A stretch of 64,000 nucleotides of DNA from Rhodococcus globerulus NBRC 14531 (GTDB lineage: Bacteria; Actinomycetota; Actinomycetes; Mycobacteriales; Mycobacteriaceae): positions 1,674,001 through 1,738,000 of the forward strand of contig NZ_BCWX01000001.1 in assembly GCF_001894805.1 (NCBI RefSeq). The letters run 5' to 3'. Shown one piece after another: positions 5 through 20,897 of this stretch. Both the position numbers and the translations under genes were made by a program. The notes under the pieces are model-generated. The model did not search any database and was not told where the DNA came from. It was given only the letters and a program-made list of their open reading frames with translations. The first letter of the stretch is position 1. Each line of letters opens with the position of its first letter.

Positions 5-898
5 TCAATTACGTGAGATGTGTTGATCACGATCACTGAAGATCGGAGACCAGATGGGCGCGCCGCGCGACGAGCGCAGCGACGGAACGACCTTGCCGTC
101 AACGTCTTTGATTCCGTATTCGTGGGCAAGTTCGGCGGTGATGAAGGTGCCGCCCGAGCGTGTCGCGAGATTTGTGTCGACGGCGAGAGCTGCGATGACG
201 CGACCCGGGAATTCCGGGGTGCAGCCGTCCTCCGGCCGAGTAGCAGCCCGGCCATCCAAGCCAGGGACATTCGCCAGGTTTCGCTGCGCGCGTTCGGTGA
301 AGGTGAGGCCCTGCCAGAGCGAAAGGGACGTCACGTTATGCGGTTTCAGCTCGATGGCCATATCTCGTGCCATCCGGTCCACCGCAGACTTCGCCGTGCC
401 GAAGATGACGTTGTAGGTGTAAGTGACGCCGGTGTATCCGGAGACGGCCACTATGAGGCCGGACTTGTGCGGTGTCATGATCTTGGCGGCATGCCAAGCT
501 GCTACGAAGTTCGAGCGGACGCCGACATCCACCATTTCCCAATGGGAGAGCGGTTTCTCCCAGAAGGACTGTGGGTCGGTCAGGTCTTCGGGCAAGGAGA
601 ATGCGTTGTTGACAAGAATGTCCAATCGGCTTTGCTCGTCTCGTACCTGCTGGAACAGGGCGGCAACCTGTGCGTCGTCGGCGTGGTCCACTGCGACGGC
701 AACGCCCTTGCCGCCGCGCCGCGTACACTCAGCTGCTGTCTCTGCGATCGTGCCGGGTAGAGGATTCGACCCAGCGAGAACCGTGCGTCCCGTGACGTAG
801 ACGACGGCGCCCTGGTCTGCGAGCGCCAGCGCGATTCCTTTCCCGATACCGCGACTGGCGCCCGTGACCACAGCAACTTTGCCCGACAGAGAACTCAT
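5..898 (-). CDS. SDR oxidoreductase, DHRS1-like, catalytic Tyr replaced by Phe
   Basis: The 297-residue protein opens with a Rossmann cofactor motif (TGASRGIG, about residues 12-19) and has NNA at about 97-99 and an active-site Ser near 153, as in DHRS1-like short-chain dehydrogenases. Where the family has Tyr-x3-Lys, the codons read Phe166-Gly-Thr-Ala-Lys170 (ATC TTC GGC ACG GCG AAG on the minus strand), so the catalytic Tyr is missing. The ATG at 898 was chosen because it starts exactly at the family N-terminus and has GGGAG just upstream; longer readings give non-SDR sequence. It is the last gene of the catabolic operon, 13 nt after the aldehyde dehydrogenase. The fold is certain; activity is doubtful or unusual. 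Confidence 0.88.
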   Translation of the reverse strand: MSSLSGKVAVVTGASRGIGKGIALALADQGAVVYVTGRTVLAGSNPLPGTIAETAAECTRRGGKGVAVAVDHADDAQVAALFQQVRDEQSRLDILVNNAFSLPEDLTDPQSFWEKPLSHWEMVDVGVRSNFVAAWHAAKIMTPHKSGLIVAVSGYTGVTYTYNVIFGTAKSAVDRMARDMAIELKPHNVTSLSLWQGLTFTERAQRNLANVPGLDGRAATRPEDGCTPEFPGRVIAALAVDTNLATRSGGTFITAELAHEYGIKDVDGKVVPSLRSSRGAPIWSPIFSDRDQHISRN

Positions 899-911
899 CT
901 CCCGTGCTATT

Positions 912-2342
912 TCAGGAAGCGTCAGCGGTGTAGCCGAGTATGCCCTTGATCTCCAGGTAGTCGTGGAAACCGAATCCGCCCCACTCACGTCCGTTGCCGC
1001 TCTTCTTGTAGCCGCCGAACGGTGCGGCGAAGTCGAATCCGTCATTGATGGCGACGGACCCGGCGCGGATCCGTCGAGCGACGGCGCGAGCTTGCTCGAG
1101 GTCCGCGCCGGCAACAAATCCGGCGAGGCCGTACTCGGTGTCGTTTGCGATGTCGATGGCGTCGTCGATGTTGTCGTAGCCGAGAATCGTGAGAACCGGT
1201 CCGAAGATTTCCTCGCGGGCGATGGTCATGTTGTTGGTGACGTCGGCAAAAACGGTGGGGCGGACGTAGTAGCCCGTCGGCAAGTCGTCCGGACGTCCGA
1301 GGCCGCCCGCAACCAGCGTCGCACCTTCGCCGATCCCCTTGTCGATCAGGGACTGGATCTTCTCGAACTGGGCCTCGGACACTACGGGGCCGATTGCAGA
1401 ATCGCCGCCCGGATCACCCACGGTCACCTGTGATGCTGCCTCTTGCGCGGCGCTGATGGCTTCTGCCATCCGGGAATTGGGCACAAGCATGCGTGATGGT
1501 GCGCTGCACGTCTGCCCCGAGTTCATCATCATGGTTGCCACACCCTTTGCGACGTTCTCGGCGAAGTCGCCGTCGTCGAGGATGATGTTGGGGCTCTTGC
1601 CGCCGAGCTCCTGCGAGACTCGCTTGACGCCGGGTGCGGCGTTGGTGGCGATGTCGATGCCGGCGCGGGTGGAGCCGGTGAACGAGATCATGTCGACGCC
1701 CGGGTGTGCGGACAGTGCTGCCCCGACAGTGGGTCCGTCGCCCTGGACGAGGTTGAACACGCCGGCGGGAACTCCTGCAGCGTCGAGGATTTCGGTGAAA
1801 ATCTGGCCGGTGAACGGCGACTTCTCCGAAGGTTTGAGCACCATGGTGCAACCAGTTGCCAGTGCGGGGAAGACTTTCACGGCAATGAGGCTGATCGGCC
1901 AGTTCCACGGGGTGATCAATCCGCAGACTCCGATCGGTTCTTTGACGATCAGTGAATCGCCCTGCTGCTCCTCGAAGACGAAGTTCTCGAGCGCATCGAT
2001 CGCGGTGGTGAGATGACCGGCACCAAGGTTCACCTGGAAACCGTTGGCCAGCGCGTTCGGTGCGCCCATCTCCTCGGTCAGAGCTGCAGCGAGGTCGCCC
2101 ATCCGGTTCTGATACTCGGTGAGAATGTTTCGCAGAATCGTGAGTCGTTCCTCGCGGCTGGTTGCAGACCAACTCGAGAACGCGTCGCGTGCTGCCGCAA
2201 CGGCGCGGTCGACGTCTGCCGGTGATCCTGATGCTACTGTGCCGCAGACCTTCTCGGTCGCAGGATTGACGACCTCTAGTGTGCTGGACTCCGCTGGATC
2301 GACCCATTGTCCGCCGATGTAGAACTTCAGATATTCACGCAT
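912..2342 (-). CDS. NAD(P)-dependent aldehyde dehydrogenase
   Basis: The 476-residue protein is a typical ALDH-superfamily enzyme oxidising an aldehyde to a carboxylic acid with NAD(P)+. Visible landmarks are TPWNWP (about 144-149, with the oxyanion-hole Asn147), FTGSTRAG (221-228, cofactor binding), ELGGKSP with the general-base Glu245, and NSGQTCSAPSR with the nucleophile Cys279. Length is normal. The ATG at 2342 is preceded by AAAGGGA about 11 nt upstream. It lies 69 nt after the ThDP enzyme and 13 nt before the terminal SDR, so it is probably co-transcribed and would oxidise an aldehyde released earlier in the pathway. The substrate cannot be inferred. Confidence 0.95.
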   Translation of the reverse strand: MREYLKFYIGGQWVDPAESSTLEVVNPATEKVCGTVASGSPADVDRAVAAARDAFSSWSATSREERLTILRNILTEYQNRMGDLAAALTEEMGAPNALANGFQVNLGAGHLTTAIDALENFVFEEQQGDSLIVKEPIGVCGLITPWNWPISLIAVKVFPALATGCTMVLKPSEKSPFTGQIFTEILDAAGVPAGVFNLVQGDGPTVGAALSAHPGVDMISFTGSTRAGIDIATNAAPGVKRVSQELGGKSPNIILDDGDFAENVAKGVATMMMNSGQTCSAPSRMLVPNSRMAEAISAAQEAASQVTVGDPGGDSAIGPVVSEAQFEKIQSLIDKGIGEGATLVAGGLGRPDDLPTGYYVRPTVFADVTNNMTIAREEIFGPVLTILGYDNIDDAIDIANDTEYGLAGFVAGADLEQARAVARRIRAGSVAINDGFDFAAPFGGYKKSGNGREWGGFGFHDYLEIKGILGYTADAS

Positions 2343-2411
2343 GACTGTTCTGGTCCCTTTCGCAGTGTTCGTGAGTACTCGTCGAGCCGGGCATGATGCG
2401 TGCTGGAATGT

Positions 2412-4118
2412 TCACTGAGTGCCTTCTGCGTACCATGTTCGGAACTCGTCGTAGCTCGGCATTTCCTCGGAATTCGCCTTGGGGTCGACGGCAACGTGGA
2501 TGACGCCCGGCTTACCGCTGGCGTAGGCGCGCTTGATCGCCGGCGCGATATCCTCGTCGCGGTCGACGTACTCCCCGTAGCAGCCGAAGCCTTCGGCAAC
2601 CTTGTCGAGCCGCGTATCTGTGCTCCAGTGAACACCGGTCTCGAGTGATCCCTGGCCGTAGGTGCGTTTGTAGACACCCACCTCGAGTCCCCACGCATAG
2701 TCGACGGCAACTACGCAGACCAGCGGCAGGTTGAGTCGCGCAGCGGTTTCCAGTTCTGCGATATGGAATTGGAACGACGAGTCGCCGGTGATCAACATGA
2801 TGGGACGTTGGCCGCCGTCAGCTACACCGGCGCCGACGGCATACGGGAGCCCGGTGCCGAGGTGGCCGAAGTTCTGATTCCACATCACGTCGTGGGGTTT
2901 TGCCTGTGAGTACGTCCAGCCGAAGATAGTGGTGGCGCCGCCGTCTCGGACCATGATGCCGTCGCTCGGGAAATCCTTGGTCGCCTCGACAATCAGACGA
3001 GCGGGATGCACCGGAGACATACCGGACGGCGCGGTTTCGGCAAGTTCCGCCAGCTGCGTCGCATCCTGTGTGATCCAGCCGTCGAGCTCGGGGGTCGCCG
3101 TGCGCGGTGCATCCCACAGCGCGTCGGAGAGTTGGGGAACAATCGCGCGGAGATCGCCGACGAGGGGCACGTCGATCCTGCGGTTGACGCCGATCGCCTC
3201 CGGATCCTGTTCGACGAGGATCCATTTCCGGCTCGCTTCGTTCGCGATCCAGTGCCGGCCCCGGCCGTAGTGGACCGGCTCTCCGAGTTCGGTGCCGATT
3301 GCCAGGCACAGGTCGGATTTCACCACGGCGTCGACAGCGGCGGAGGAGAAGCCGTATGGAAAGGTGCGGTTCTCGAGTCCTTCGATGAAGGAGGTGCCCC
3401 CTGAGGTCTGAATGACAGGGCAGGCCATGGCATCTGCGAGTGCCTTGACGGATTCGCCGGCGCGGGAGGTGTGGACTCCGTGCCCGATGAGCAGAATGGG
3501 TTGCTGGGCCGCTTGGATCAATTTCACCGCTTCGGCAACGAAGTCTGGGCCCGCAGTCTGTCCGACCATGCGATACGCATTGGGGGGCAACGGGTCTGGC
3601 ACGTCCAGCTCTTCCTGGATGATGTGGGAGGGGTATTCGATGTACACGGGTCCAGGGGTGCCGGACAGCGCTTTCCGCAGTCCTTCGCGGATAATTTCGT
3701 CCGTCTGATCGGCGTATTCGATACTGGCACTGTATTTTACGGATGCTTCGAAGAGGTTTGCCTGTTTGACGAATTGAATGCGCCCACGTCGAACGCGCTG
3801 TTCGGTGATGCGGGCGCGCTGGCCACCGAGGAAGATCACCGGTGAGTTCTCGACTTTGGCGCACATCATGGCGCCGGCCAGGTTTGCGACGCCGGGGCCA
3901 AGGGTACCGATACACACCGCGGCCTTGCCGGTCATGCGCGATACGGCCTCAGCCATGAATCCGGCCGACTCTTCATGGTGCGGCGCAACCACATTCCATC
4001 CGCGTTCCTCGGCGAGGTGGAACATGTGCACGAAGTTCGGGTCGGGGATTCCGAAAATCGTGTTGATGCCCTCGGCTTCGAAGAGTTGCAAAATGCGTTC
4101 GTAAACCTTAACTGACAT
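2412..4118 (-). CDS. ThDP-dependent enzyme (acetolactate synthase/decarboxylase family)
   Basis: The 568-residue protein has the three-domain layout of thiamine-diphosphate enzymes: an N-terminal pyrimidine domain with the cofactor-activating Glu (HHEESAGFMAEA, Glu49), a central domain, and a C-terminal pyrophosphate domain. The metal/pyrophosphate motif is atypical. The usual GDG reads GDS (445-447), and the Asn ligand 27 residues after Asp446 is Asp473 (VAVDYAWG). Members make or break C-C bonds next to a carbonyl (2-oxoacid decarboxylation, carboligation, 1,2-dione cleavage). It overlaps the upstream SDR by 11 nt, so the pair is translationally coupled. It is not the housekeeping IlvB: no small-subunit gene is near and the operon is catabolic. 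Exact reaction unknown. Confidence 0.9.
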   Translation of the reverse strand: MSVKVYERILQLFEAEGINTIFGIPDPNFVHMFHLAEERGWNVVAPHHEESAGFMAEAVSRMTGKAAVCIGTLGPGVANLAGAMMCAKVENSPVIFLGGQRARITEQRVRRGRIQFVKQANLFEASVKYSASIEYADQTDEIIREGLRKALSGTPGPVYIEYPSHIIQEELDVPDPLPPNAYRMVGQTAGPDFVAEAVKLIQAAQQPILLIGHGVHTSRAGESVKALADAMACPVIQTSGGTSFIEGLENRTFPYGFSSAAVDAVVKSDLCLAIGTELGEPVHYGRGRHWIANEASRKWILVEQDPEAIGVNRRIDVPLVGDLRAIVPQLSDALWDAPRTATPELDGWITQDATQLAELAETAPSGMSPVHPARLIVEATKDFPSDGIMVRDGGATTIFGWTYSQAKPHDVMWNQNFGHLGTGLPYAVGAGVADGGQRPIMLITGDSSFQFHIAELETAARLNLPLVCVVAVDYAWGLEVGVYKRTYGQGSLETGVHWSTDTRLDKVAEGFGCYGEYVDRDEDIAPAIKRAYASGKPGVIHVAVDPKANSEEMPSYDEFRTWYAEGTQ

Positions 4119-5034
4119 GTGCGTTGCCCTCCATGGCTATCGCAAAACTCTTGGTGATGTGGTCGACGTGAGCTGACGGGACGACAGGCAGGATCCACGG
4201 ATCGCGGACGTCGCGGATGGCGTCGATCTGCCTTCCAACCTCCTCGATCGACCATGACGGTTGGTACACCCCGGGGGTTTCGGCGATGAATGCCCGAGCA
4301 ACGCGGCCGCCGATTGTCACCAGCATTTCGCCGGTGACGGAACAGGATTCGTGAGCCAGCCAGGCGGCCGTCGGGGCCGTGAGTTCCGGTCCCATGGGCG
4401 GGTACGACGACGTGTCGATCCCGTCGGCCAACCGCGTGATCGCTGCGGGAATGACGACGTTGGACAAGACGCCGTGGTCGGCACCCTCGATTGCTGCCAC
4501 GTTGGACAGTCCGATGATGCCCGCCTTGGACGCCGCGTAGTTCGCGATGCGGTTGTTTCCGTACAGACCGCCGATCGACGAGGTCAGCACGATCCGGCCG
4601 TATCCGGCGTCGCACATCAGCGGGAATGCCGGCCGCAGTACGTGAAATGCGCCGCGGAGGTGAACGTCGAGAACTGCGTCGAAATCCTCGTACGTCATCT
4701 CCGTCAGCGGTGCGTAGCGATTGTTTCCGGCGTTGTGGATGAGGATGTCGATACGTCCGTAGTGCTCGATGGCCGCGTTGACGATCGCCTGGCCGCCCGG
4801 TGCGGTTGCAACGGACGCAGTGCTCGCGACTGCATCGCCGCCGGCAGCAGTGATCTCCGCGACGACCGCACTGGCGACTCCGCTATCTGTATTCTCACCG
4901 CTGATCCCGACACCGGGATCGTTGACGACCACTTTGGCCCCCTTGGATGCAAGTAGTAGTGCGTACTCACGTCCGATTCCTCTGCCGGCGCCGGTAATGA
5001 CGGCAACACGACCGTCGAAGCGGGCCTCAGACAT
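4108..5034 (-). CDS. SDR family oxidoreductase (HSD17B4/MFE-like)
   Basis: The 308-residue protein is a complete classical SDR. It has the cofactor motif TGAGRGIG (14-21), NAG at 101-103, Ser152/153, and the catalytic pair Tyr166-x3-Lys170 (YAASK). The VVVNDPG stretch after the second strand resembles the multifunctional-enzyme 3-hydroxyacyl-CoA dehydrogenase branch, where Asp selects NAD(H). About 60 residues follow the SDR core, longer than a minimal SDR. It overlaps the BVMO gene upstream by 8 nt and the ThDP gene downstream by 11 nt, placing it firmly in the operon. It probably oxidises a hydroxyl group of an intermediate. Confidence 0.92.
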   Translation of the reverse strand: MSEARFDGRVAVITGAGRGIGREYALLLASKGAKVVVNDPGVGISGENTDSGVASAVVAEITAAGGDAVASTASVATAPGGQAIVNAAIEHYGRIDILIHNAGNNRYAPLTEMTYEDFDAVLDVHLRGAFHVLRPAFPLMCDAGYGRIVLTSSIGGLYGNNRIANYAASKAGIIGLSNVAAIEGADHGVLSNVVIPAAITRLADGIDTSSYPPMGPELTAPTAAWLAHESCSVTGEMLVTIGGRVARAFIAETPGVYQPSWSIEEVGRQIDAIRDVRDPWILPVVPSAHVDHITKSFAIAMEGNAHVS

Positions 5035-6880
5035 CGAGTTTCAGGCCTTCCAATGTGCCCGTGTCCCGCCAGGTTTGAAGGATTTCGCCCAGTTCGTAGA
5101 AACCGCCCCAGAACGGGTCGCCGAGGAATGAGCGCCCGTTCGGCTCGCCTTCGCTGTTGTAATAGCCGGGGGTGCATTCCGACGTGAACGTGCTGTTGTC
5201 GATCGAGTGGGCCCGGATGGTCTGGATCCAGCCTTCTTCGGCTGCCGCGGTGGGTTCGACATGCGTGGCTCCGCGCGCCTGAGCCTCTTTGATGATGTAC
5301 GCGATATGGTCGGCCTGCTGCTCGAACATCAGCGTTGTCGATGCGGTGACTCCGCCTTGAACGAAGCCGGTGGCAAAGTGGTTGGGGAAGCCGTGCGCCA
5401 TTACACCGTGCAGGGTGCGGAATCCCTTGCCCCAGTGGTCGTAGAGGGAGGTTCCGTCGCGACCGGCAAACGGCGCGATGTCGAACTGGCGGTCGAGCGC
5501 GGTGGTGATCTCGAACCCACTCGCGAACACGATCGCGTCGAACTCGAGCTCGACGCCGTCGACCATGACGCCCTTCTCGGTGATCCGTTCCACGCCTTTG
5601 GTTTCCGACACATCGATCAGAGTGACGTTCGGGCGATTGAAGGTCGGGAGATAGTCGTCGTTGAAGACGGGACGCTTGCACATGTTGCGGTAGTACGGCT
5701 TCAGTAGTTCCGCAGTGTCCGAGTCGTCGACGATCTCCTCGATCCGTCGGCGGAGCCGCTCCATCGATCGGTAGTCCTCGATCTCCTTGAGTTCCATGAA
5801 CTTCACCGGATCGGCGAGCGCAGCCCAGCCGTTGGTTTCGGTTAGTTTCGCGGCCATGTTGCGCGACACTTCGGTCCAGCCGTCACAAATGAGATCCGGC
5901 TCGCCGGGGGAGTAGAAGGCAAAGGCGGCATTGTGGAAGTTGCGCTGACGTGCTGCCCGCCAACCTGGCTCTAGACTGTTCACCCATTGAGGATCGGTCG
6001 GGTAGTTGGCTCGCTCGAAGATGTACGACGGTGTCCGCTGGAAGACGGTCAGGTGCTTCGCGCCTTTTGCCAGGTGAGGGATCGCCTGAATACCACTCGA
6101 TCCGGTGCCGATGACGGCGATTCGTTTGTCGGCGATCTTGTCCAGCCCGCCGTGCAGGTCGCCGCCGGTGTAGTCGTAATCCCACCGAGCCGTGTGGAAT
6201 GTGTGTCCCTTGAAGTCCGTGATCCCGGGGATACCCGGAAGCTTCGGCCGGTTGTATGGGCCCTGTGCCATGACGACAAAACGAGCATGGATCTCGTCGC
6301 CGCGATTGGTACGGATCTGCCAGCGATTGATCTCCTCGTCCCATTCCAGCGAGCGGATCAAGGTATGGAAGATCGCATTGTCGTAGAATCCGAAGTGCTT
6401 ACCGATGCGCTGAGCGTGCTCGAAGCACTCGTCGCCGTGCGAGAACCGCTCCTTCGGCATGTAGCCGGTTTCCTCGAGCAGCGGGAGGTAACAGTAGGCG
6501 TCCGAGTCGATCTGGATTCCCGGGTAGCGGTTCCAGTACCAGACGCCGCCGAAGTCCCCACCGAGTTCGACGATCTTGAAGTCTGTGACGCCCGCCTGCT
6601 GAAGGCGGTGCGCGGCAATGAGGCCGCAGAATCCACCGCCGAGGACTACGACCTCGATGTCGTCGGTGATGGGCTCGCGCGGTTCGACGGGCAGGTGCGG
6701 ATCGCTCTCGTAGAAACCCGCGAATTCGTCGGCGGCCTCCACGTACTGCTGCTGACCTTCGGGACGAACACGCTTGTCGCGTTCGAGGAGGTACTTCGCC
6801 CGGAGAGCGTCGATGTCGACTTCGGGAGTGTGTGTGGGCGCGCAAGGCGTCATGGCCGTAGCTTGGGTCGGTGCGGTCAT
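5027..6880 (-). CDS. Baeyer-Villiger monooxygenase (long type, 617 aa)
   Basis: This flavoprotein has an FAD-binding Rossmann motif GGGFCG (81-86), the Baeyer-Villiger fingerprint F-x-G-x3-H-x3-W-D (FKGHTFHTARWD, 223-234) and a second NADPH motif GTGSSG (258-263). The roughly 75-residue N-terminal extension (DALRAKYLLERDKRVRPEG) is typical of larger BVMOs such as cyclododecanone/cyclopentadecanone monooxygenases; that subgrouping is an inference. BVMOs insert oxygen next to a ketone to give an ester or lactone. It follows the Rieske gene by 44 nt and overlaps the next SDR by 8 nt. With a Rieske oxygenase and dehydrogenases in one operon, a cyclic ketone intermediate is likely. Confidence 0.95.
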   Translation of the reverse strand: MTAPTQATAMTPCAPTHTPEVDIDALRAKYLLERDKRVRPEGQQQYVEAADEFAGFYESDPHLPVEPREPITDDIEVVVLGGGFCGLIAAHRLQQAGVTDFKIVELGGDFGGVWYWNRYPGIQIDSDAYCYLPLLEETGYMPKERFSHGDECFEHAQRIGKHFGFYDNAIFHTLIRSLEWDEEINRWQIRTNRGDEIHARFVVMAQGPYNRPKLPGIPGITDFKGHTFHTARWDYDYTGGDLHGGLDKIADKRIAVIGTGSSGIQAIPHLAKGAKHLTVFQRTPSYIFERANYPTDPQWVNSLEPGWRAARQRNFHNAAFAFYSPGEPDLICDGWTEVSRNMAAKLTETNGWAALADPVKFMELKEIEDYRSMERLRRRIEEIVDDSDTAELLKPYYRNMCKRPVFNDDYLPTFNRPNVTLIDVSETKGVERITEKGVMVDGVELEFDAIVFASGFEITTALDRQFDIAPFAGRDGTSLYDHWGKGFRTLHGVMAHGFPNHFATGFVQGGVTASTTLMFEQQADHIAYIIKEAQARGATHVEPTAAAEEGWIQTIRAHSIDNSTFTSECTPGYYNSEGEPNGRSFLGDPFWGGFYELGEILQTWRDTGTLEGLKLDV

Positions 6881-6924
6881 CGGATCTTCTTTCGTCAGAG
6901 CAAGTCAGTACACGATGTGAGGAG

Positions 6925-8301
6925 TCAGGCGAGATCCACCGGCGCACCGGTACCCATGTACGTGGCTAGGTTGTGGTGGAGGTTGACGATGCTGCGTTCG
7001 CGGTACGGGTTGGGTTTCGGCCCTGAAAAGCCTTGCGACTTCATACCTTTCTGGACCGCAGCCATGTTCACGAAGTCCTGTGGCAGGACGGTTCGCCAGG
7101 CCGGATCCTCCGGCGGGGTGAACTCCCATTCGGTTTCCGGTTCCTCGCCTGCGGGGAAGAGTTCGTAGACAGCGGCCTCGAAGATGCACTTGTTCGGATC
7201 GTCGCCGTAGGGCCGGGCGCTGTAGCAGAGCATGTTGTTCAGGGCGTGCCCGATCTGGAAGTTCGGGAAGATCTGCCACGCCGTGCCACTTGCGGCGACA
7301 ACCTGTGGGTCGACGGTCGGCCAGATCACGCCACGCGCTTCGTCGTCGCGCCTGGCCGAATCCAGCCAGTGACGCAGAACCTGATCCGATGGGGTGCCCT
7401 CGGGGAGTTCGTCGATCAGTCGCTGGGCCGCATCGACGAGGGTCCGAGTTGTATTGGTGTTTGCATTTTCCCACGTGAAGTTCTGCATTTCGATGGTCGA
7501 CTTACGGGGGTCCGCGCCGCTGCCGATGCGCAGTTTTGCCTGGTTTTCTTCCATGCCCTTCGGTGCGTCGTAACCGATGTTGCTGTGCTTACCTTGGGCG
7601 CGGGACCAACCGAGAAAATTCCCGAAGTTCATGAACTCCGGGTGGGTGTACGGAACATGGTAGGTCTCCATGAACGCTTCGAGCGCAACCTTCCAGTTGC
7701 AGTCGAAGACAAGCCATTTGCGCCAGCGGTACCGCATGTTCTCGAGGTGGAAATGATCGAGAAGGGAAGCCGCGGGCTCGAGATAGTCACGCAGAGGTTC
7801 GCAGCCCGGATCCATGTTGATCCAGATCCATCCACCCCAGGTGTCCACTGTGACACCACGCAGCTTCGTTGATTCCTCGGTCAACCCACACGGCCAGTCC
7901 TGACGTTCGGCGGCGAAGGTGTTCTTGCCGTCGAGGTCGTACCGCCAGCCGTGAAACCCGCAGATGAATTGCCTTGCCTGGCCGCGGGCTTCGTGGGCAC
8001 CGGGCGGCGTGTCGACGAGTCGGCGACCGCGGTGGGAGCAGACGTTGTGATAGGCACTGATCGTGTCCGGGGTCGAGCGCACGATGATGACCGAGTCATC
8101 GAGAATTTCGTAGGTGAGAAAGTCGCCGACCTTGGGAATTTCCTCCACCCGACCGACCTGCTGCCACACTTTCGACCACAGCTTGTCGCCCTCGGCGCGG
8201 GAATACGTCTGCGAAATGTATGCATCCACACCGATGGTGAGTGGTGTGGAATGTGACTCGCTTACAGTCGATTCCGGAATGTTCTCGGCAGTGTCGGTCA
8301 T
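6925..8301 (-). CDS. Rieske non-heme iron oxygenase, alpha subunit
   Basis: The 458-residue protein has a Rieske [2Fe-2S] site, Cys88-x-His90 ... Cys114-x2-His117 (NVCSHRGRR and CGFHGW), followed by the mononuclear iron site around METYHVPYTH (His215 and His220). This is the oxygenase subunit of a ring-hydroxylating or related Rieske oxygenase, which uses O2 and electrons from a separate reductase to hydroxylate its substrate. No beta subunit, ferredoxin or reductase gene is present in the window, so redox partners must be encoded elsewhere or the enzyme is alpha-only. The ATG at 8301 has GGAGA upstream. It lies 28 nt after the SDR at 8330-9202 and 44 nt before the BVMO. Confidence 0.95.
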   Translation of the reverse strand: MTDTAENIPESTVSESHSTPLTIGVDAYISQTYSRAEGDKLWSKVWQQVGRVEEIPKVGDFLTYEILDDSVIIVRSTPDTISAYHNVCSHRGRRLVDTPPGAHEARGQARQFICGFHGWRYDLDGKNTFAAERQDWPCGLTEESTKLRGVTVDTWGGWIWINMDPGCEPLRDYLEPAASLLDHFHLENMRYRWRKWLVFDCNWKVALEAFMETYHVPYTHPEFMNFGNFLGWSRAQGKHSNIGYDAPKGMEENQAKLRIGSGADPRKSTIEMQNFTWENANTNTTRTLVDAAQRLIDELPEGTPSDQVLRHWLDSARRDDEARGVIWPTVDPQVVAASGTAWQIFPNFQIGHALNNMLCYSARPYGDDPNKCIFEAAVYELFPAGEEPETEWEFTPPEDPAWRTVLPQDFVNMAAVQKGMKSQGFSGPKPNPYRERSIVNLHHNLATYMGTGAPVDLA

Positions 8302-8329
8302 GGTGTCTCCTCTTCACATCGGTTCTGTG

Positions 8330-9202
8330 TCAGTGCGTTATCGCGTCGCGGAACGATTCGTCCTTGAGAAAAAGTGACGTGTGATCTGGGCCCATGTGCG
8401 TCCACTTGAGATTCAGTCCGCCGTCCACGAGCAATGTCTGTCCGGTGATGTAGGTCGAGAGATCCGACAACAGGAAGAGAATTGCACCGGCTTGCTCCTC
8501 AGGGCGGCCGCGTCGACCCATCGTGATGGCGCGGCGATCACGCTCGGGATCGTCGTCGACGTAGGTGGAAGACGCAGGGGTGGCGGTCACGCCGGGAGCG
8601 ATGGCGTTCACTCGAATACCGACTTCGGCGAGTTCCACGGCCATCGTGCGGGTTGCCGCGACCAAGGCGGCTTTTGCACTGCCGTAACCGATATGAAAAG
8701 GCGCGGTGTTCATTCCGCTGATCGACGAGATCGACACGATGGAACCGGGACGGCTCTGGGCCTTCAATTCCGACGCGACCATCTGGCTCATGAAGAACAT
8801 CGTTTCGAGATTTGCCGTGAACAATTCGCGCCAGTCCGCTCGGGTGACGCGAGTGGACGGCATCCAGGTTGCAGGGGCAGCGCCGCCGGCGACGTTGACC
8901 AATCCGTGCAGTTTGCCGTCGGTGCGTCGAATCTGCTCTCGCACGATGGCAATACCGTCGTCGGTGGACGCATCGGCCGCCAGTGGGATGATCGAAAGAC
9001 CCTGCGCGATAAGTGGTGCGATGTGGGTGTCGAGGTTTTCCTTGGAACGGCTCACGGCGATCACGGTTGCTCCGGCGCGGGCAAGCATGCTCGTTACCGA
9101 CGTGCCGATCCCGCCGCCTGCTGCGCCCGAGACAACCACGATGCGTCCGTCCAGACCGACAAAGCTGTCGCCAACTTGGCTGTTGCTCATCGCGTGGCTC
9201 AC
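8330..9202 (-). CDS. SDR family oxidoreductase
   Basis: The 290-residue classical SDR shows the cofactor motif SGAAGGGIG (25-33), Ser near 160, and Tyr173-x3-Lys177 (YGSAK), plus the usual C-terminal TGQTLLVDGG. The first codon is GTG at 9202, overlapping the stop of the upstream propeller gene as GTGA; an ATG five codons in (9190) is an alternative start. It probably oxidises the alcohol formed by the adjacent Rieske oxygenase to a ketone for the BVMO. That assignment is inferred from operon order, not from specificity residues. Confidence 0.92.
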   Translation of the reverse strand: MSHAMSNSQVGDSFVGLDGRIVVVSGAAGGGIGTSVTSMLARAGATVIAVSRSKENLDTHIAPLIAQGLSIIPLAADASTDDGIAIVREQIRRTDGKLHGLVNVAGGAAPATWMPSTRVTRADWRELFTANLETMFFMSQMVASELKAQSRPGSIVSISSISGMNTAPFHIGYGSAKAALVAATRTMAVELAEVGIRVNAIAPGVTATPASSTYVDDDPERDRRAITMGRRGRPEEQAGAILFLLSDLSTYITGQTLLVDGGLNLKWTHMGPDHTSLFLKDESFRDAITH

Positions 9203-10797
9203 ACTGCCTTGCGTAGTGCCAGGACGCTGCCTTCTGCATCTGCGGAGACGTAGATTGTTCCGTCCGGTCCGGCCGCGATGCCGGCGAACGGGCCCTGAGG
9301 ACCGGAGAACGGCGCTAGTCCCAGCAGCGGCTTGGGGGTGACACCCTCGGGTGCGCCCACCGGCAGATTGCCGGCAACTTTCTGCTGAATCTTGGTCGAC
9401 AGATCGAAGCTGATCAGGGCTTTTGTTCCGACATCGACGATGTAGAGCACGCCGCCCCGAACAAGAATTCCCTGCGGGTTCTCGAGTCCGTCGACGATCG
9501 TGTCGACGCTGGAGCCGTTGATCGCGACGATTCGTCCGGCGCCGGCTTCGGAGACCAGGCAGGTACCGTCCGCGGTGAAGGCCACGCCCATCGGGTCGTG
9601 CAGTCCCGAGGCCAATTCTTCAACCTGCCCGCTCGACCCGACGGCAACAACTTTGCCTGCTCCCAGGTCGGCAACCGCGATGGTTCCGTTCGCGGAGACC
9701 GCGACACCGTAGAGTTGGTCGAGTCCTTCGGCGAGGACCTCACTTTCAGCGGTGACGGCGTTGTAGCGCGAAACGGTTCCGTTGCCCGCGACGATGAATT
9801 CGCCGTCGCCGACGGCCGTCATTCCGCGGATGTAACCGGGGTATCCTGGGCTGAAAAGCATTCCGAGAGTGCGGAGTTCGCCGCTCGGTTCGAGTGCGAG
9901 CAAGAAGGTGCCATCGGCGATGTACAACGTGCCGTCCGGGCCAACGGTCAAATCCAGGGGCCAAGTCAAACCGTCGGCCAAGGCGGTGCGGGTTCGGCCA
10001 CCATCGAGGATCTCCGTGATCTGGCCGGTGAAACTCGATACGAACAGTCGATCACCTACGAAGGTGAGGTTGTCGAGTCCGGGATTGAGGCTTGCCAGTA
10101 CGGTGCGATCGCCGTTGCGGGGATTGATCCGCAGCACTTCGCCCGACGCCACCTGGGTGGAGACGATGAAGCCCTCGGAGTCGAACTTGACTGCGTCCGG
10201 GACGCCGAGATCTGCTGCGACGCGTTCGGGTTCACCGTTGCCGTCGGGGTCGATGCGCCAGATTTCGTTGGTCCCGAGCACCGGGTAGTACAGCTTGCCG
10301 TCGGGACCGACCTCCATGCCGTTGGGCATCGGGAGGTTTTCGAGAAGTATCCGGGGTGCGCCGCCGTCGAGGCTCAGTTCCATCAGACGGCCACCGATGC
10401 GGCACTCGTTGACGAACAGTCGCCCCTGGTGGAACGTGATTCCGTTGACTCCGGGGAGGTCGTCGCGCAAAAGCCGCGTGCTGCCGCTTGATTCGCGCAC
10501 GCTGACCCGGCCGTCGTAGTACTCGGTGATGTACAGGTCGCCGGTGGGATCGAAGGCGACGTCGTCGGGCGCAACGATGTCGCTGCCCATGGCGCTGATG
10601 GTCTCGAGGTTGCCGGTGTTGATGTCGAGCGCGCTGATCTGGCTGCCTGCCACCTGTGCCACGTAGACGCGGCCGTCCGGTCCGGTGCGGAGTCCGTTTG
10701 CGCCGAACAGCCTGCTCGGGGGAGTGAGCCGGGTGAGATTCCAGCCCTCGGCGAGGGTGAATTGCGCTGGGCTGGTGTAGCGGGCCGCCTGTGTCAA
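9199..10797 (-). CDS. Double beta-propeller NHL/SMP-30-like protein, possible lactonase
   Basis: The 532-residue protein is built of repeated blades with the pattern G-x-DG-x-(L/I)Y(I/V), for example GPDGRVYVAQ, DPTGDLYITE, GPDGKLYYP, GPDGTLYIAD and GPDGTIYVS. This indicates two six-bladed propellers of the NHL/SMP-30/gluconolactonase superfamily. I chose a TTG start at 10797 because AGGAGG stands 6 nt upstream; the longer reading adds sequence with no propeller character. No signal peptide is visible, so it is probably cytoplasmic. It is the first gene of the operon and overlaps the next gene by GTGA. SMP-30-type propellers hydrolyse lactones using a metal, which fits a BVMO pathway, but metal ligands cannot be assigned confidently. 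Confidence 0.85.
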   Translation of the reverse strand: MTQAARYTSPAQFTLAEGWNLTRLTPPSRLFGANGLRTGPDGRVYVAQVAGSQISALDINTGNLETISAMGSDIVAPDDVAFDPTGDLYITEYYDGRVSVRESSGSTRLLRDDLPGVNGITFHQGRLFVNECRIGGRLMELSLDGGAPRILLENLPMPNGMEVGPDGKLYYPVLGTNEIWRIDPDGNGEPERVAADLGVPDAVKFDSEGFIVSTQVASGEVLRINPRNGDRTVLASLNPGLDNLTFVGDRLFVSSFTGQITEILDGGRTRTALADGLTWPLDLTVGPDGTLYIADGTFLLALEPSGELRTLGMLFSPGYPGYIRGMTAVGDGEFIVAGNGTVSRYNAVTAESEVLAEGLDQLYGVAVSANGTIAVADLGAGKVVAVGSSGQVEELASGLHDPMGVAFTADGTCLVSEAGAGRIVAINGSSVDTIVDGLENPQGILVRGGVLYIVDVGTKALISFDLSTKIQQKVAGNLPVGAPEGVTPKPLLGLAPFSGPQGPFAGIAAGPDGTIYVSADAEGSVLALRKAV

Positions 10798-10910
10798 GGA
10801 GTGCCTCCTGTGGTGAGGAGAGATTTTTGGGGGTGAGTAGACGGGCCTCGACTGACCGATTGGGTCGTGACGTGCGCCACTCTTCGTTGATCGTGAGCTA
10901 ATCACGGAAC

Positions 10911-10941
10911 CCTAAGCATTTCAAGTATTGCAATCCTTAGG
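10911..10941. promoter_or_regulatory. Inverted repeat upstream of catabolic operon
   Basis: CCTAAG (10911-10916) and CTTAGG (10936-10941) form perfect 6-bp arms around a 19-nt AT-rich centre that carries ATTGCAAT. It lies about 115-145 nt upstream of the TTG start of the operon's first gene. That is a plausible place for an operator or activator site, but no binding protein can be named. Confidence 0.35.
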
Positions 10942-11099
10942 AGGATGGAAGTACGATTCTCGCTATATGTGTGTCTGATTTCCGGTTTTGACGCAGCACT
11001 GATCGTGGGCAGTACTGATGATCGCCATGTGCGTATGTGCAGTACGGCGGCTTTGTTCGCTGTGAGTCCGGCTGCTGGCCGGCGGGCAAGGGGTTTTGA

Positions 11100-11116
11100 C
11101 TGTCCTTGGTGGACAG
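11100..11116. promoter_or_regulatory. Short inverted repeat CTGTCC-N5-GGACAG
   Basis: Perfect 6-bp arms (11100-11105 and 11111-11116) lie around TTGGT, just after GGGGTTTT. This could be an operator of a dimeric regulator or a small hairpin. It lies in the non-coding stretch upstream of the catabolic operon. Confidence 0.3.
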
Positions 11117-11165
11117 CGACTTTCGTTCGCCCTGACCTTCGAGCAATCCGGCACACTTCGGCTAT

Positions 11166-11387
11166 ATGCCGGACGGAGGCATGATCGAGACCGTAAGTCC
11201 AGGTGCTGATCTGCCCGAAGGCGGGTTAGCGCGCGACTACCTTTGGGCCGGCCTCGGCGTCACGCGATGCGGTCACTGCATTGCCTACATCCGCGAAGGC
11301 ATCCACGATTCGTGCGTGGTTGGCCCGCTCTGCGATCACTTTCCACCCTCCTCTGGACGCAACCGTGGATACCGTTTATTCCGGTAA
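11166..11387 (+). CDS. Possible small Cys-containing protein (73 aa)
   Basis: An open frame of 73 codons has mostly G/C third positions and a plausible composition (LARDYLWAGLGV, then CGHC and two further Cys before position 60). No ribosome binding site precedes the first ATG; TATAT directly upstream could be a -10 box for a leaderless transcript. A second ATG at 11181 has GGAGG directly adjacent. No family is recognised. It may be a real small protein or chance coding in an otherwise empty region. Confidence 0.3.
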   Translation: MPDGGMIETVSPGADLPEGGLARDYLWAGLGVTRCGHCIAYIREGIHDSCVVGPLCDHFPPSSGRNRGYRLFR

Positions 11388-11501
11388 CGCGATGGCGTGC
11401 AAGACTGGTGGATGAACCGCTGAGTCATCCGTTCCGGATAGGTGCCGTTTCTACGGCAATAGGGTGAAAATCGCGGCGGGTGAAAATCACAAGGGTGGCA
11501 A

Positions 11502-11660
11502 ATGTACGAATCGAATTTGTTCTCCGACTCCAGTGCGACGGAGTCGGCCGAGATCGAAAAAACTGCAGAGGAATTGGCGTCCGAACGCACCGCATCTGTG
11601 GCGGAACGTTCCAACGCCGACACCGCTGAACAGCGCCAGTCGCAACTGTTCAGCGGGTAG
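11502..11660 (+). CDS. Small hypothetical protein (52 aa), acidic and helical
   Basis: This 52-codon frame begins with ATG at 11502, preceded by AAGGGTGG about 4-11 nt upstream, and ends with TAG at 11660. The product (MYESNLFSDSSATESAEIEK to the C-terminus QSQLFSG) is rich in Glu, Ala and Ser and looks like a single amphipathic helix. Codon use matches the neighbours. It is convergent with the VOC gene, leaving about 20 nt between stops. No family recognised. Confidence 0.5.
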   Translation: MYESNLFSDSSATESAEIEKTAEELASERTASVAERSNADTAEQRQSQLFSG

Positions 11661-11680
11661 TTTTTCGGCGCCGAGACGGG

Positions 11681-12061
11681 TCAGGATTCTTTCAGGACGG
11701 AGATCACGTTTCCGGCCGGGTCGGTAAACCAGGCGATATCGGGGCCGTTGCCTCGCATGATGCCGTTTTCCTCCTGAGGGAATCCGTCGTATTTGACGAA
11801 CTCCACTCCGCGGCCGGTCAGTTCGTCGACCGCACTGTCGATATCGTCCACGAGGAAATTCAGGATCGTGTACGACGCGGGTTCGTGATTCGGCTTGGGA
11901 TAGACGAGTATTTCGGTCCCACCTGCTAGGTGCAGGCGGATAATTCCCATTTCCTCGTCTGTGACCTTCAATCCAAGGGTTTCGCCATAGAATTTCTTGG
12001 CCGCGTCAATGTCGTCGACAGAGAATCCGCTGATGGCTTTTGTGCTTCCGAGTGCACTCAT
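11681..12061 (-). CDS. VOC (glyoxalase/bleomycin-resistance fold) family protein
   Basis: The 126-residue protein has the two beta-alpha-beta-beta-beta halves of the vicinal-oxygen-chelate fold: ISGFSVDDIDAAKKFYGETL at the start and DPAGNVISVL at the end. The ATG at 12061 overlaps the stop of the upstream VOC gene (ATGA), so the two are translationally coupled. Members are metal-dependent lyases, dioxygenases or antibiotic-binding proteins; the substrate cannot be inferred. Confidence 0.88.
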   Translation of the reverse strand: MSALGSTKAISGFSVDDIDAAKKFYGETLGLKVTDEEMGIIRLHLAGGTEILVYPKPNHEPASYTILNFLVDDIDSAVDELTGRGVEFVKYDGFPQEENGIMRGNGPDIAWFTDPAGNVISVLKES

Positions 12062-17498: not shown

Positions 17499-18068
17499 GT
17501 GATTTCTCTTCGGCGGACTCGACTACGCACTGCCCTTCTCATCGGTTGCTCAACGGCAGCGGTCAGCGCGCTGATCGGAGTGCTGTGGGCGTTCCTGGTG
17601 CCGGCCGAGCATCTGTTGGTTGTCTCCGAGGGCCGCGGAATTGCGCTGACCGGGGAGAGTCTTCATCAGTTCGATGCGGTCGCGATCTTTTTCCTGCTTG
17701 CCCTGATTCTCGGTGTTCTCACCGGGGTGGCCGCGTGGCTCGCGAGATTCAGCCGAGGGCCGTACGCGCTCGGCGGGTTGATCGTCGGTTCAGTGCTCGG
17801 CACTGCACTGATGGCTGCAGTGGGCACCGGCATCGCGAAGTTGCGATTTCCGTCCGTCGACAATCCGGCGGTGGGGGAGATCATCGCGCGGGCGCCCGGC
17901 ATCGGCACGTTGCTGGTGCTGATCGTTCAGCCGTTGGCGGCGTGCATCACGACATTGGTTCTTGTGGCACTGAGCCCGTACGACGACCTCGGGGTTGCCG
18001 ACCATGCGGACGACGCGGACGTCGAGGCTGATGTGTTGTCGGAGCCCGCGACGCAGGAATTGTCCTGA
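17499..18068 (+). CDS. DUF2567 membrane protein
   Basis: The 189-residue protein has about four membrane segments and an acidic C-terminal tail (DDADVEADVL). It is the positional match of Rv1591, which follows bioB and Rv1590 in mycobacteria, here separated by the inserted TDT transporter gene. Function unknown. The GTG at 17499 is used; the purine-rich GGGGGAAGG lies unusually far upstream (about 16 nt), so the start is not certain. Confidence 0.8.
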   Translation: MISLRRTRLRTALLIGCSTAAVSALIGVLWAFLVPAEHLLVVSEGRGIALTGESLHQFDAVAIFFLLALILGVLTGVAAWLARFSRGPYALGGLIVGSVLGTALMAAVGTGIAKLRFPSVDNPAVGEIIARAPGIGTLLVLIVQPLAACITTLVLVALSPYDDLGVADHADDADVEADVLSEPATQELS

Positions 18069-18091
18069 CGGTTGGTCTAGCAGACGCCTAA

Positions 18092-19492
18092 TTGTCCGTT
18101 GTCGTTCATACTCAGCGCGTGCCTGTATTCGAAGCTGACATCGCCCGTCCGCGCGCCACAGTAACCACTCCTGAGGTGTTGCTGGGTGGTAGGGCTGCTC
18201 GCAAGGTTGTGACCCGCTCGCAACTAGCGCTGTGGAACGACGCCGAGCGAGGTCACGATTCGCTCGCAACGATACTGGCGCAGAACACGATTCGGGCGCA
18301 GGACTTGCTGCCGATCCGGCATGGCCGAATGGCGGCATCTCCGTGGACGTACTTCCGGGGCGCGGCCGCGGTCATGGCCGCCGATCTCGGATCGGCGCCG
18401 AACACAGGCATCGGGGTGCAGTTGTGTGGAGATGCCCACGTGCTGAACTTCGGGCTCTGGGCCACCCCGGAACGCAACTTGTCCTTCGATCTCCGCGACT
18501 TCGACGAAACCGTTCCAGGCCCGTTCGAGTGGGACGTCAAGAGACTCGCCGCAAGCATCGTCGTCCTCGCCCGTGAGAACGGAGTTTCCGAGGACCGTGC
18601 AGAAGCGGCGACGGTGGCAGCAATGAGGGCCTACCGAGACAAGATCGAGTCCTACGCTGCAACCCCCGAAATCGACATCTGGTACGACCGCATCGACGTT
18701 GACCGTCTGCTGGGCTACTTCACCCCGGATACTGCCCTGCGCGCCGGGCAAATGATCGAAAACAAAGCTCAGCGTCGAACCAGTCGGGGAGCGTCACGCA
18801 AGCTCACGGAGATTGTCGACGGACGGCGACGTATCCGTGAAGAGCCACCGTTCCGCACGCACGTCGGCGACAGTCAGGTCGAACTTGTCACCGAGGTCGT
18901 GGCCGGTTACAGCACTTCGGTTCCGGACCATATCTGGAGTCTGCTCTCGCGATATCGGGCATCGGACGTGGTGCGGCAAGTGGTGGGTGTCGGCAGCGTC
19001 GGGATGCGTGTTTATCTTGCACTTCTCGAAGAGCGTCGGACCGGCGATCCGTTTTTCCTCCAGATCAAGCAGGCCGGGCCCTCGGTGTACGAGGGATACG
19101 TCGAACCGAGCAGATACTCGAACTGCGGTGAGCGAGTTGTCCAGGGGCAACGCATGCTTCAGAGTGCGACTGACATGTTCGTCGGATGGACCAGTGTTGG
19201 CGGCATGGATTTCTACGTTCGACAATTCCGCGACATGAAGGTCATTCCCGACGGCGCAACCATCGGACCGTACCTCGCCGAATTCGCAAGTGCGTGTGGG
19301 GAAGTGCTGGCTCGTGCTCATGCCCGGAGCGGTGACGCGAGCGCGATCTCCGAATATCTCGGCCAGTCGGACAAAGCCGTTGTGGCTTTGGCGAAGTTCG
19401 CGCGCCGGTACGCGGATCAGAACGAGCGCGATCACGCACAGTTGGTTGCGGCGATTGCCCGTGGATCGGTGGCGCGTGCTCCCGGTTGGTGA
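18092..19492 (+). CDS. DUF2252 family protein
   Basis: The roughly 466-residue soluble protein has the DUF2252 signatures PWTYFRGAAAVMAADL, QLCGDAHVLNFG and FDLRDFDETVPGPFEWD, followed by RLAASI. The pattern resembles kinase-like phosphotransferase folds (an HxN-like and a DFD-like element), but the family has no settled function. The start is ambiguous: TTG at 18092 (used) or GTG at 18119; neither has a good ribosome binding site. It overlaps the next small gene by GTGA. Confidence 0.88.
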   Translation: MSVVVHTQRVPVFEADIARPRATVTTPEVLLGGRAARKVVTRSQLALWNDAERGHDSLATILAQNTIRAQDLLPIRHGRMAASPWTYFRGAAAVMAADLGSAPNTGIGVQLCGDAHVLNFGLWATPERNLSFDLRDFDETVPGPFEWDVKRLAASIVVLARENGVSEDRAEAATVAAMRAYRDKIESYAATPEIDIWYDRIDVDRLLGYFTPDTALRAGQMIENKAQRRTSRGASRKLTEIVDGRRRIREEPPFRTHVGDSQVELVTEVVAGYSTSVPDHIWSLLSRYRASDVVRQVVGVGSVGMRVYLALLEERRTGDPFFLQIKQAGPSVYEGYVEPSRYSNCGERVVQGQRMLQSATDMFVGWTSVGGMDFYVRQFRDMKVIPDGATIGPYLAEFASACGEVLARAHARSGDASAISEYLGQSDKAVVALAKFARRYADQNERDHAQLVAAIARGSVARAPGW

Positions 19493-19722
19493 CGGTGGAC
19501 CGCGCGAGCCAGGCCGAGGACGCTCAACGGGTATTTTGCGAACTCGCTGCGAAACACGACGTTGCCGTGGCCTTGGTCAGCGAAAGCCCCATGCCACCGA
19601 TCATTCGTCCTTCCGAGGCCGAATCCCCAGAGTTCTCACAGAATGAGCACAACGGCAGCACAAGATTGTGGGCTTACATAGGAGTCACAGTGATTGATTC
19701 CTCGAAGGAGATGCCGCAATGA
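19489..19722 (+). CDS. Hypothetical protein (77 aa)
   Basis: The frame starts with GTG at 19489, overlapping the DUF2252 stop as GTGA, and its own stop overlaps the next ATG as ATGA. These overlaps are the main evidence that it is real. The product begins with a helical segment (AEDAQRVFCELAAKHDVAVALV) and continues into low-complexity Ser/Glu/Pro sequence. No family recognised. Confidence 0.5.
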   Translation: MTVDRASQAEDAQRVFCELAAKHDVAVALVSESPMPPIIRPSEAESPEFSQNEHNGSTRLWAYIGVTVIDSSKEMPQ

Positions 19723-20051
19723 GTGCTCACACAGTTGATCTCGACCGGGGAGTGGTGTTGGTGACCGATATCGGCCGCGATCACGGAACGCGTGTTGCCG
19801 CCGAGTTCCTTGCTGCCGGCTGGAATGTGGCAGTGACGGCTCGCAGCGTCACGGAACTGGTTCGGATCATGTCTGGCAAGCCGACGCATCGGTTCTTCGC
19901 GGTTGTCGCGGATCCGACGGATCGTTGGCAGGCGGATCGCATTCTCGACCGGGTGGGTGCACGTTTCGGCACGATCAACCGCGTGGTCGATCCCACCGGA
20001 ACCGTCGCCGCAGCATGGATGATGAGAAGTGATGTCGATGCTGTTGCCTGA
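19719..20051 (+). CDS. Truncated SDR-like Rossmann protein (110 aa)
   Basis: The protein resembles only the first half of a short-chain dehydrogenase: a strand plus a modified glycine motif (LVTDIGRDHGTRVA), then helix and strand (AGWNVAVTARS) and ADPTD. Where SDRs have NNAG it has VDPTG, and the Tyr-x3-Lys half is absent. It overlaps the upstream gene by ATGA and ends 15 nt from the convergent nrtR stop. It is either a decayed SDR or a small nucleotide-binding protein working with DUF2252. Confidence 0.6.
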   Translation: MSAHTVDLDRGVVLVTDIGRDHGTRVAAEFLAAGWNVAVTARSVTELVRIMSGKPTHRFFAVVADPTDRWQADRILDRVGARFGTINRVVDPTGTVAAAWMMRSDVDAVA

Positions 20052-20066
20052 CAGTAATATTCGCAG

Positions 20067-20795: not shown

Positions 20796-20818
20796 GTTTT
20801 CGATCCTAAGTCGAAAAC
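20796..20818. promoter_or_regulatory. NrtR operator candidate
   Basis: GTTTTCGA (20796-20803) and TCGAAAAC (20811-20818) are perfect 8-bp inverted arms around TCCTAAG. The repeat directly abuts the nrtR GTG and covers its ribosome binding site (AGGA on the minus strand). It lies 80 nt upstream of nadA. The symmetry and location fit an NrtR site repressing both directions. Confidence 0.75.
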
Positions 20819-20829
20819 CTCGATAACGG

Positions 20830-20855
20830 AAATCCGGGCCAGCCCGTTCGGATTT
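20830..20855 (+). promoter_or_regulatory. Inverted repeat in the nadA leader
   Basis: AAATCCG (20830-20836) and CGGATTT (20849-20855) are perfect 7-bp arms with a 12-nt loop. It lies between the NrtR operator and the nadA ribosome binding site. It could be a leader hairpin or a second, different operator. Confidence 0.4.
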
Positions 20856-20897
20856 GAACTGGGTGATGAGCCTGGGTTCACGGTGAAGGAGAACGCC

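Follow-up and report, generated by a model that had tools for sequence, protein, structure and literature searches.

A conserved actinobacterial gene set with a Rieske oxygenase, a Baeyer-Villiger monooxygenase and a double beta-propeller protein, proposed to degrade bulky alicyclic compounds

Here we analysed a stretch of 64,000 nucleotides (nt) from Rhodococcus globerulus NBRC 14531 (contig NZ_BCWX01000001.1, positions 1,674,001 to 1,738,000), called the window below, whose host genome is 6.7 Mb in size. Positions 5-10797 contain eight open frames on the minus strand, and the families of all eight proteins were confirmed by Pfam. In the order of transcription, they are:

9199..10797, minus strand: PROP, double beta-propeller protein of 532 amino acids, SMP-30/gluconolactonase-like (Pfam SGL), proposed lactone hydrolase
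8330..9202, minus strand: SDR1, classical short-chain dehydrogenase (SDR; Pfam adh_short_C2)
6925..8301, minus strand: RIES, alpha subunit of a Rieske non-haem iron oxygenase (Pfam Rieske and Ring_hydroxyl_A)
5027..6880, minus strand: BVMO, type I Baeyer-Villiger monooxygenase with an N-terminal extension (closest solved relative 5mq6, E 1.8e-116)
4108..5034, minus strand: SDR2, short-chain dehydrogenase with a C-terminal extension (Pfam adh_short)
2412..4118, minus strand: THDP, thiamine diphosphate (ThDP) enzyme of the acetolactate synthase / oxalyl-coenzyme A (CoA) decarboxylase / benzaldehyde lyase superfamily with three thiamine pyrophosphate domains, proposed C-C lyase or decarboxylase
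912..2342, minus strand: ALDH, aldehyde dehydrogenase (Pfam Aldedh, 511.8 bits)
5..898, minus strand: SDR3, SDR-fold protein in which the catalytic Tyr is replaced by Phe (FGTAK; Pfam adh_short)

Neighbouring frames overlap by 4 nt (PROP/SDR1), 8 nt (BVMO/SDR2) and 11 nt (SDR2/THDP), or are separated by 28 nt (SDR1-RIES), 44 nt (RIES-BVMO), 69 nt (THDP-ALDH) and 13 nt (ALDH-SDR3), so that the arrangement described in an earlier note on this DNA is confirmed, with all frames open. PROP starts with a TTG at 10797 behind an AGGAGG and stops at 9199, and SDR3 runs from an ATG at 898 to a stop at 5. Longer frames exist in the list of open reading frames (PROP to 10905, SDR3 to 1117), but the shorter starts were preferred because they agree with homologues and with the spacing. 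The earlier note had regarded these eight genes as the whole unit. In the host genome, however, three more minus-strand genes follow beyond the window edge, overlapping or at 12-nt spacing, which makes a run of at least 11 genes; the edge cuts the unit, and the number eight is a limit set by the window. From spacing and conservation, the run is predicted to be co-transcribed. A scan of 10600-11700 found no sigma-70-like promoter above chance.

Relatives of BVMO were collected from GTDB genomes (190 found, best 80 loci kept), and gene order was counted from matches of at least 52% identity; the listing of family matches in these loci began at 35% identity, except for PROP and RIES. In 33 of these 80 loci, PROP, SDR1, RIES, BVMO, SDR2, THDP and ALDH follow each other in one order and on one strand, while SDR3 comes next in 15 of the 33. 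A genome search for the same eight genes, as proposed in the earlier note, therefore recovers seven of them in order in 33 loci, and all eight in 15. Among the other loci, 11 contain at least three of the families and 36 contain fewer. The full sets come from Rhodococcus, Nocardia, Williamsia, Gordonia, Actinomadura, Amycolatopsis, Streptacidiphilus and Actinophytocola. A Rhodococcus plasmid carries the seven genes in order according to its annotation, a Mycobacterium branderi plasmid carries only part of the set, and a Myxococcales contig carries BVMO-RIES-THDP-ALDH. Two Sphingobium plasmid loci match all seven families with 52-71% identity; their SDR1 is divergent and their SDR2 lies some kilobases (kb) away. 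On the plasmid of Sphingobium RAC03 (L093, about 17700-20960), the matches of ALDH and PROP are fragmented in a region with no listed gene, so these two copies may be broken; L094 gives single matches.

The same genes are also inherited together. The match lists for 298 genomes of the order, as we read them, place PROP, RIES and BVMO orthologues in the same 39 genomes, with identities from 61%, 65% and 57% upwards, respectively, and below 61% the identity of PROP falls straight to 42%. The order conserved in 33 of 80 loci is a strong argument against chance, and chance clustering was ruled out by this order together with the matching 39-genome profiles, in agreement with the single functional unit that the earlier note had assumed. 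In four mycobacterial genomes (G148, G195, G226 and G273) the set is split in two places with all seven parts kept: SDR1-RIES-BVMO-SDR2-ALDH stands in one place, and PROP with THDP in another (locus pairs L100/L127, L104/L139, L155/L143 and L156/L145). Their retention in one genome despite the separate positions speaks for a common function. RIES was found in 32 of 34 sampled species of genus g2, among the matches listed, where same-family genomes without RIES appear to come first; g2 was taken as the mycobacterial genus group because, in a tree of RIES and BVMO, named loci of Mycobacterium, Mycolicibacterium and Mycolicibacter fall between its rows. In one genome (G154; L161 and L162), PROP (61%) and RIES (53%) each occur as a second copy, with about 18 kb between the two. 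This RIES is close to an SDR3-like gene (69%) and to a luciferase-like gene of distant relationship (36%), and a sister pathway is possible there.

For BVMO, the closest solved relative is 5mq6, which we take to be PockeMO, and the alignment is nearly full-length, including the N-terminal part. Both type I fingerprints, [AG]GxWxxxx[FY]P[GM]xxxD and FxGxxxHxxxW[PD], are present in the window protein. Among orthologues (at least 52% identity and 80% coverage), they were found in 47/47 and 41/47, and 5 of the 6 misses have Tyr for the first Phe. The best NCBIfam match is PtlE, at 647.9 bits against an equivalog cut-off of 1100 bits, so an assignment as pentalenolactone D synthase was rejected. 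Passages of PMC6058054 describe the group of PockeMO and PtlE/PntE as accepting bulky ketones, and the studied relatives Sle_13190 and Sle_62070 as taking complex ketones. The view of the earlier note that this enzyme acts on a cyclic compound gains from its closeness to a polycyclic-ketone enzyme (5mq6, under the assumed name). Within the same family, one copy may be broken, since the match at G148:C75:132199-134055 has one internal TGA; a gammaproteobacterial contig (L086) carries three BVMO relatives in tandem, and L084 carries two in opposite directions.

PROP matches Pfam SGL with 62.9 bits (cut-off 26.3). Its AlphaFold model, built from 42 sequences with a predicted local distance difference test (pLDDT) score of 91.4, consists almost entirely of beta structure, and its repeats are consistent with two propellers. 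When structures were compared with VIA-align, residues 28-266, the first propeller, matched the known lactonase RPA3624 (Z 27.3, root-mean-square deviation 2.2, 235 residues aligned). PROP thus resembles the SMP-30/gluconolactonase propellers in its Pfam match and first-propeller alignment, and differs from them in carrying two propellers per chain. In an alignment of 58 rows, in which the window protein is counted twice and 13 rows are distant, D78, D79, N118, N159, D242 and N243 are kept in 58/58 rows and N34 in 57/58, where the only exception is a gap in the fragmented match of L093. This Asn/Asp set occupies an equivalent place in five of the six blades of the first propeller and is kept down to 38-40% identity, and by analogy its residues would face the pore. 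At the corresponding positions, the second propeller has mostly glycine or residues that vary.

The most distant relatives also bear on the role of PROP. In 13 genomes of another family (f14), a PROP relative with 38-42% identity exists, and in 12 of these 13 loci it adjoins a BVMO relative (about 46-51%), with no match to RIES, THDP or ALDH in the stretch read. The BVMO matches come in pieces in L129, and L119 has no BVMO in the stretch. The BVMO-PROP pair is the deepest linkage found, which fits PROP acting on the product of BVMO. Because the pair stands without RIES and THDP in 12 of 13 loci and the Asn/Asp set is near-invariant, PROP is probably a lactonase for that product. A cassette of a TetR-like gene, BVMO, PROP and an SDR recurs in this family (L113-L115 and L128; the TetR-like gene and the SDR were judged by eye), which is perhaps the minimal form of the system.

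The Rieske ligand pattern (CxH...CxxH) was found in 45/45 orthologues of RIES, the catalytic Tyr and Lys in 40/40 of SDR1 and 44/44 of SDR2, and the GQxC motif in 38/38 of ALDH. The alcohol-oxidising role that the earlier note gave to the SDRs is kept for SDR1 and SDR2. It was dropped for SDR3, where Phe occupies the Tyr site (YxxxK) in 18/18 orthologues (FGTAK, FGMAK or FGTCK): without the catalytic Tyr it is no plain alcohol dehydrogenase, and it may be a non-dehydrogenase SDR with another role or none.

In THDP, E49, D446 and D473 are invariant (40 rows), and its active-site letters compared with solved relatives pick out no single reaction. It scores below the cut-off of every family among the best 25 of 52 NCBIfam families. 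Acetolactate synthase was rejected (best 268.8 against 509 bits), and so were 2-hydroxyacyl-CoA lyase and oxalyl-CoA decarboxylase (192.1 against 600 bits for NF058623, 211.6 against 557 for NF006721). THDP occurs in 31 of the 39 core genomes and in no other of the 298 (E 1e-100). Of 396 genomes drawn from the phylum, 9 had it, all of the window's family; beyond that family, it is present in 3 genomes of another one and in loci of further families.

The loci of all 39 core genomes were viewed for what accompanies THDP. All 31 THDP genomes contain ALDH (at least 69%) at one of their loci, and in none of them are RIES and BVMO separated by a luciferase-like (LLM) gene. The 8 core genomes without THDP have no ALDH match in the stretch, and an LLM gene stands between RIES and BVMO in 8/8 (LLM identified by Pfam on L085 and L122). 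The LLM version was also seen at two named Mycobacterium loci, L052 and L085, and, among all loci collected, LLM of at least 80% identity in 10, all without THDP in the stretch. Among 198 genomes of the mycobacterial genus, a draw that partly repeats earlier genomes, THDP was found in 101 and LLM (at least 79% identity) in 51. No genome had both, where 26 would be expected under independence, and 46 had neither. An LLM-class gene beside the THDP set in Rhodococcus USK13 was considered as an exception and rejected, as it has only 27% identity to the mycobacterial LLM.

To place these changes, the tree of RIES and BVMO (42 loci and the window; G026, G045, the second copy of G036 and the duplicates L102, L103 and L105 left out) was labelled by module. 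L127, L139, L143, L145 and L157 were counted as THDP because it is held elsewhere in the same genome, and L051 was unlabelled. The LLM label needs 4 changes on this tree, of which at least 2 are forced by well-supported branches; the swap thus happened more than once, in a direction that the tree leaves unsettled. From this exchange, we infer that THDP with ALDH on one side and LLM on the other bring about the same change, in which a bond at a carbonyl is cleaved oxidatively and an acid results. The ThDP enzyme was indeed expected in the earlier note to make an extra C-C cleavage, which should now be read as a step that LLM may take over in part of the mycobacteria.

Gene content, gene order, co-inheritance, the BVMO-PROP pair and the THDP/LLM exclusion were computed; beside them, we infer each reaction, the reaction order and the substrate class as follows. 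RIES would hydroxylate a ring carbon, SDR1 would convert the alcohol to a ketone, BVMO would turn the ketone into a lactone (or ester), and PROP would hydrolyse the lactone. SDR2 would then oxidise the freed alcohol to a new ketone, and THDP would cut the C-C bond beside this new carbonyl (in a 2-oxo acid or acyloin) to give an aldehyde, which ALDH would oxidise to an acid. Some mycobacteria would use an LLM-class oxidoreductase instead of THDP and ALDH. A CoA transferase or ligase and acyl-CoA dehydrogenases, which are found near the set in relatives, would feed the acid into beta-oxidation. On balance, we lean towards an operon for the catabolism of a bulky alicyclic compound, poly- or macrocyclic and terpenoid- or steroid-like.

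A broader proposal can be put forward only tentatively: the set might represent a widespread, undescribed actinobacterial route, in which a family of double-propeller lactonases evolved with PockeMO-type BVMOs, and carbonyl C-C cleavage is performed either by THDP with ALDH or by a flavin- or F420-dependent luciferase-like enzyme, swapped at least twice. BVMO-based ring cleavage is known; this variant would be set apart by its unusual lactone-opening candidate and its interchangeable C-C cleavage module. Such a degradation route for bulky rings would have its core in most of the sampled mycobacterial-genus species and at numerous loci of Nocardia, Rhodococcus, Williamsia and Actinomadura. The candidate lactonase family, tied to BVMOs, could be useful for biocatalysis, and the set would provide an example from nature of two unrelated enzyme types that apparently carry out the same metabolic step.

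Several observations weigh against the catabolic scheme proposed above. No ferredoxin or reductase for the Rieske oxygenase was found among the eight window genes and the three that follow, a search confined to this 11-gene run; the run therefore does not encode a complete pathway as the earlier note had it, and the electron-transfer partner may be borrowed from elsewhere in the genome. SDR3 has Phe for its catalytic Tyr. In one genome (G247), a 56% BVMO occurs although PROP and RIES are both absent, and many of the more weakly related BVMOs are found on their own. Neither THDP nor LLM is present in 46 of the 198 genomes, and as the genomes are related, simple statistics overstate the exclusion. 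LLM is nearest to an F420-dependent subfamily, with a score below the cut-off, and may be no monooxygenase. For PROP, the best structural matches (VIA-align, Z 28-30) are non-enzymatic NHL propellers and designed Pizza proteins, and D201 is kept in 41/58 rows and not in distant relatives. In SMP-30 enzymes, a Glu in the first blade is typical, and the metal ligands of the pore are Glu, Asn and Asp; blade 1 of PROP has Asn in the place of that Glu. Plain NHL repeats also show Asn at the same blade position, so the conserved set supports a metal-binding pore and is no proof of it. The five sequence alignments shown for PROP are with Pizza and LRP4 repeats, with no solved lactonase among them for the metal ligands. 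In Sphingobium RAC03, moreover, an alpha/beta hydrolase lies one gene from BVMO and could open the lactone there. Thus, of the earlier claim that the propeller acts as lactonase in place of the usual alpha/beta-hydrolase, the partnership with BVMO stands, while strict replacement is weakened in that plasmid.

PROP could accordingly be a binding, sensing or scaffold protein, linked to BVMO by substrate handling, with an unlinked esterase opening the lactone. The NHL-type structural matches, PknD among them, and the missing first-blade Glu speak for this, but we judge it rather unlikely in view of the Asn/Asp set in five of six blades, the alignment of RPA3624 and the pair standing without RIES or THDP in distant loci. 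Another account concerns the second half of the set: THDP, ALDH and a hydroxylase (a TauD-type dioxygenase or RIES) could run an alpha-oxidation cycle on CoA esters, with a 2-hydroxyacyl-CoA lyase, formyl-CoA and a CoA transferase, while BVMO works on another part of the molecule. Acetolactate synthase is only slightly closer to THDP than oxalyl-CoA decarboxylases and 2-hydroxyacyl-CoA lyases are, a TauD enzyme belongs to the run of the window, and in mycobacteria the cluster also includes CoA transferases of family III. However, THDP stays below every lyase and decarboxylase cut-off among the families compared, the CoA transferase of the host genome sits in a separate opposite-strand group downstream, and simple carbonyl cleavage explains the LLM swap no less well, which makes this account unlikely.

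The LLM beside a type I BVMO in part of the mycobacteria also recalls pdc, a progesterone cluster of Caenibius tardaugens whose BVMO and LLM are both described as progesterone-oxidising enzymes (PMC12239570), and a steroid or hormone side-chain or D-ring pathway would suit the bulky ketones described for the BVMO group. This is doubtful: pdc comprises four genes (BVMO, LLM and two regulators), the main text of that paper contains no Rieske, thiamine or dioxygenase term, and no steroid genes were recognised among the neighbours viewed, where no systematic search for them was made. It is very improbable that the set serves the synthesis or tailoring of a secondary metabolite, the role of PtlE and PtlD in pentalenolactone. 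PtlE is the best NCBIfam match of BVMO and PtlD the second match of the TauD relatives, but both scores are far below their cut-offs, no synthase or cyclase was recognised nearby, beta-oxidation genes and FCD/GntR regulators surround the set in relatives, and the core is present in nearly all sampled mycobacterial-genus species, among the matches listed.

In agreement with the earlier note, which knew of no characterised pathway with this combination, text searches of the open-licence literature, with subscription papers mostly outside, found no characterised cluster with the same gene set. The operons for cyclic ketones (cyclohexanone and cyclopentanone type) share the logic of alcohol dehydrogenase, BVMO, lactone hydrolase and aldehyde dehydrogenase, whereas the present set has a beta-propeller for the alpha/beta-hydrolase, additional Rieske, ThDP and TauD enzymes, and a larger BVMO. 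Unlike PockeMO and the PtlE/PntE group, the BVMO of the window sits with Rieske and ThDP enzymes. The anthraquinone route of Sphingobium sp. AntQ-1 also has BVMO-hydrolase pairs on a Sphingobium megaplasmid, but with an alpha/beta hydrolase and a monoterpene epsilon-lactone hydrolase instead of the propeller, and with an aromatic substrate, as presented in sections of PMC9836352. In the available text of a cortisone/phytosterol paper (PMC7807495), there is no Baeyer-Villiger or thiamine term.

The three genes that continue the run beyond the window edge (locus L009) are:

window -568 to -8, minus strand: SnoaL_4-like protein (family from homologues)
window -1418 to -555, minus strand: TauD-type dioxygenase (family from homologues)
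window -2158 to -1415, minus strand: FabG-type SDR (type judged by eye)

Further on, frames of the families F18, F16 and F15 lie on the opposite strand of the host genome. Judged by representatives, F15 is a CoA transferase III and F16 is butyryl-CoA:acetate CoA-transferase-like with a score below the cut-off, while F18 is enoyl-CoA hydratase-like by eye. In relatives, a GntR/FCD regulator, acyl-CoA dehydrogenases (PimC-like), CoA transferase III and CoA ligases are found beside the set, which supports the catabolic role proposed in the earlier note. The pimeloyl-CoA-dehydrogenase-like and cyclohexanecarboxylate-CoA-ligase-like neighbours among them, whose scores are below the cut-offs, would fit a ring-derived acid. 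In some loci, SDR3 is accompanied by up to two small SnoaL-type proteins (F14, and F24, which is similar by eye), for example at 15914-16537 of L011 and at -568 to -8 of the window.

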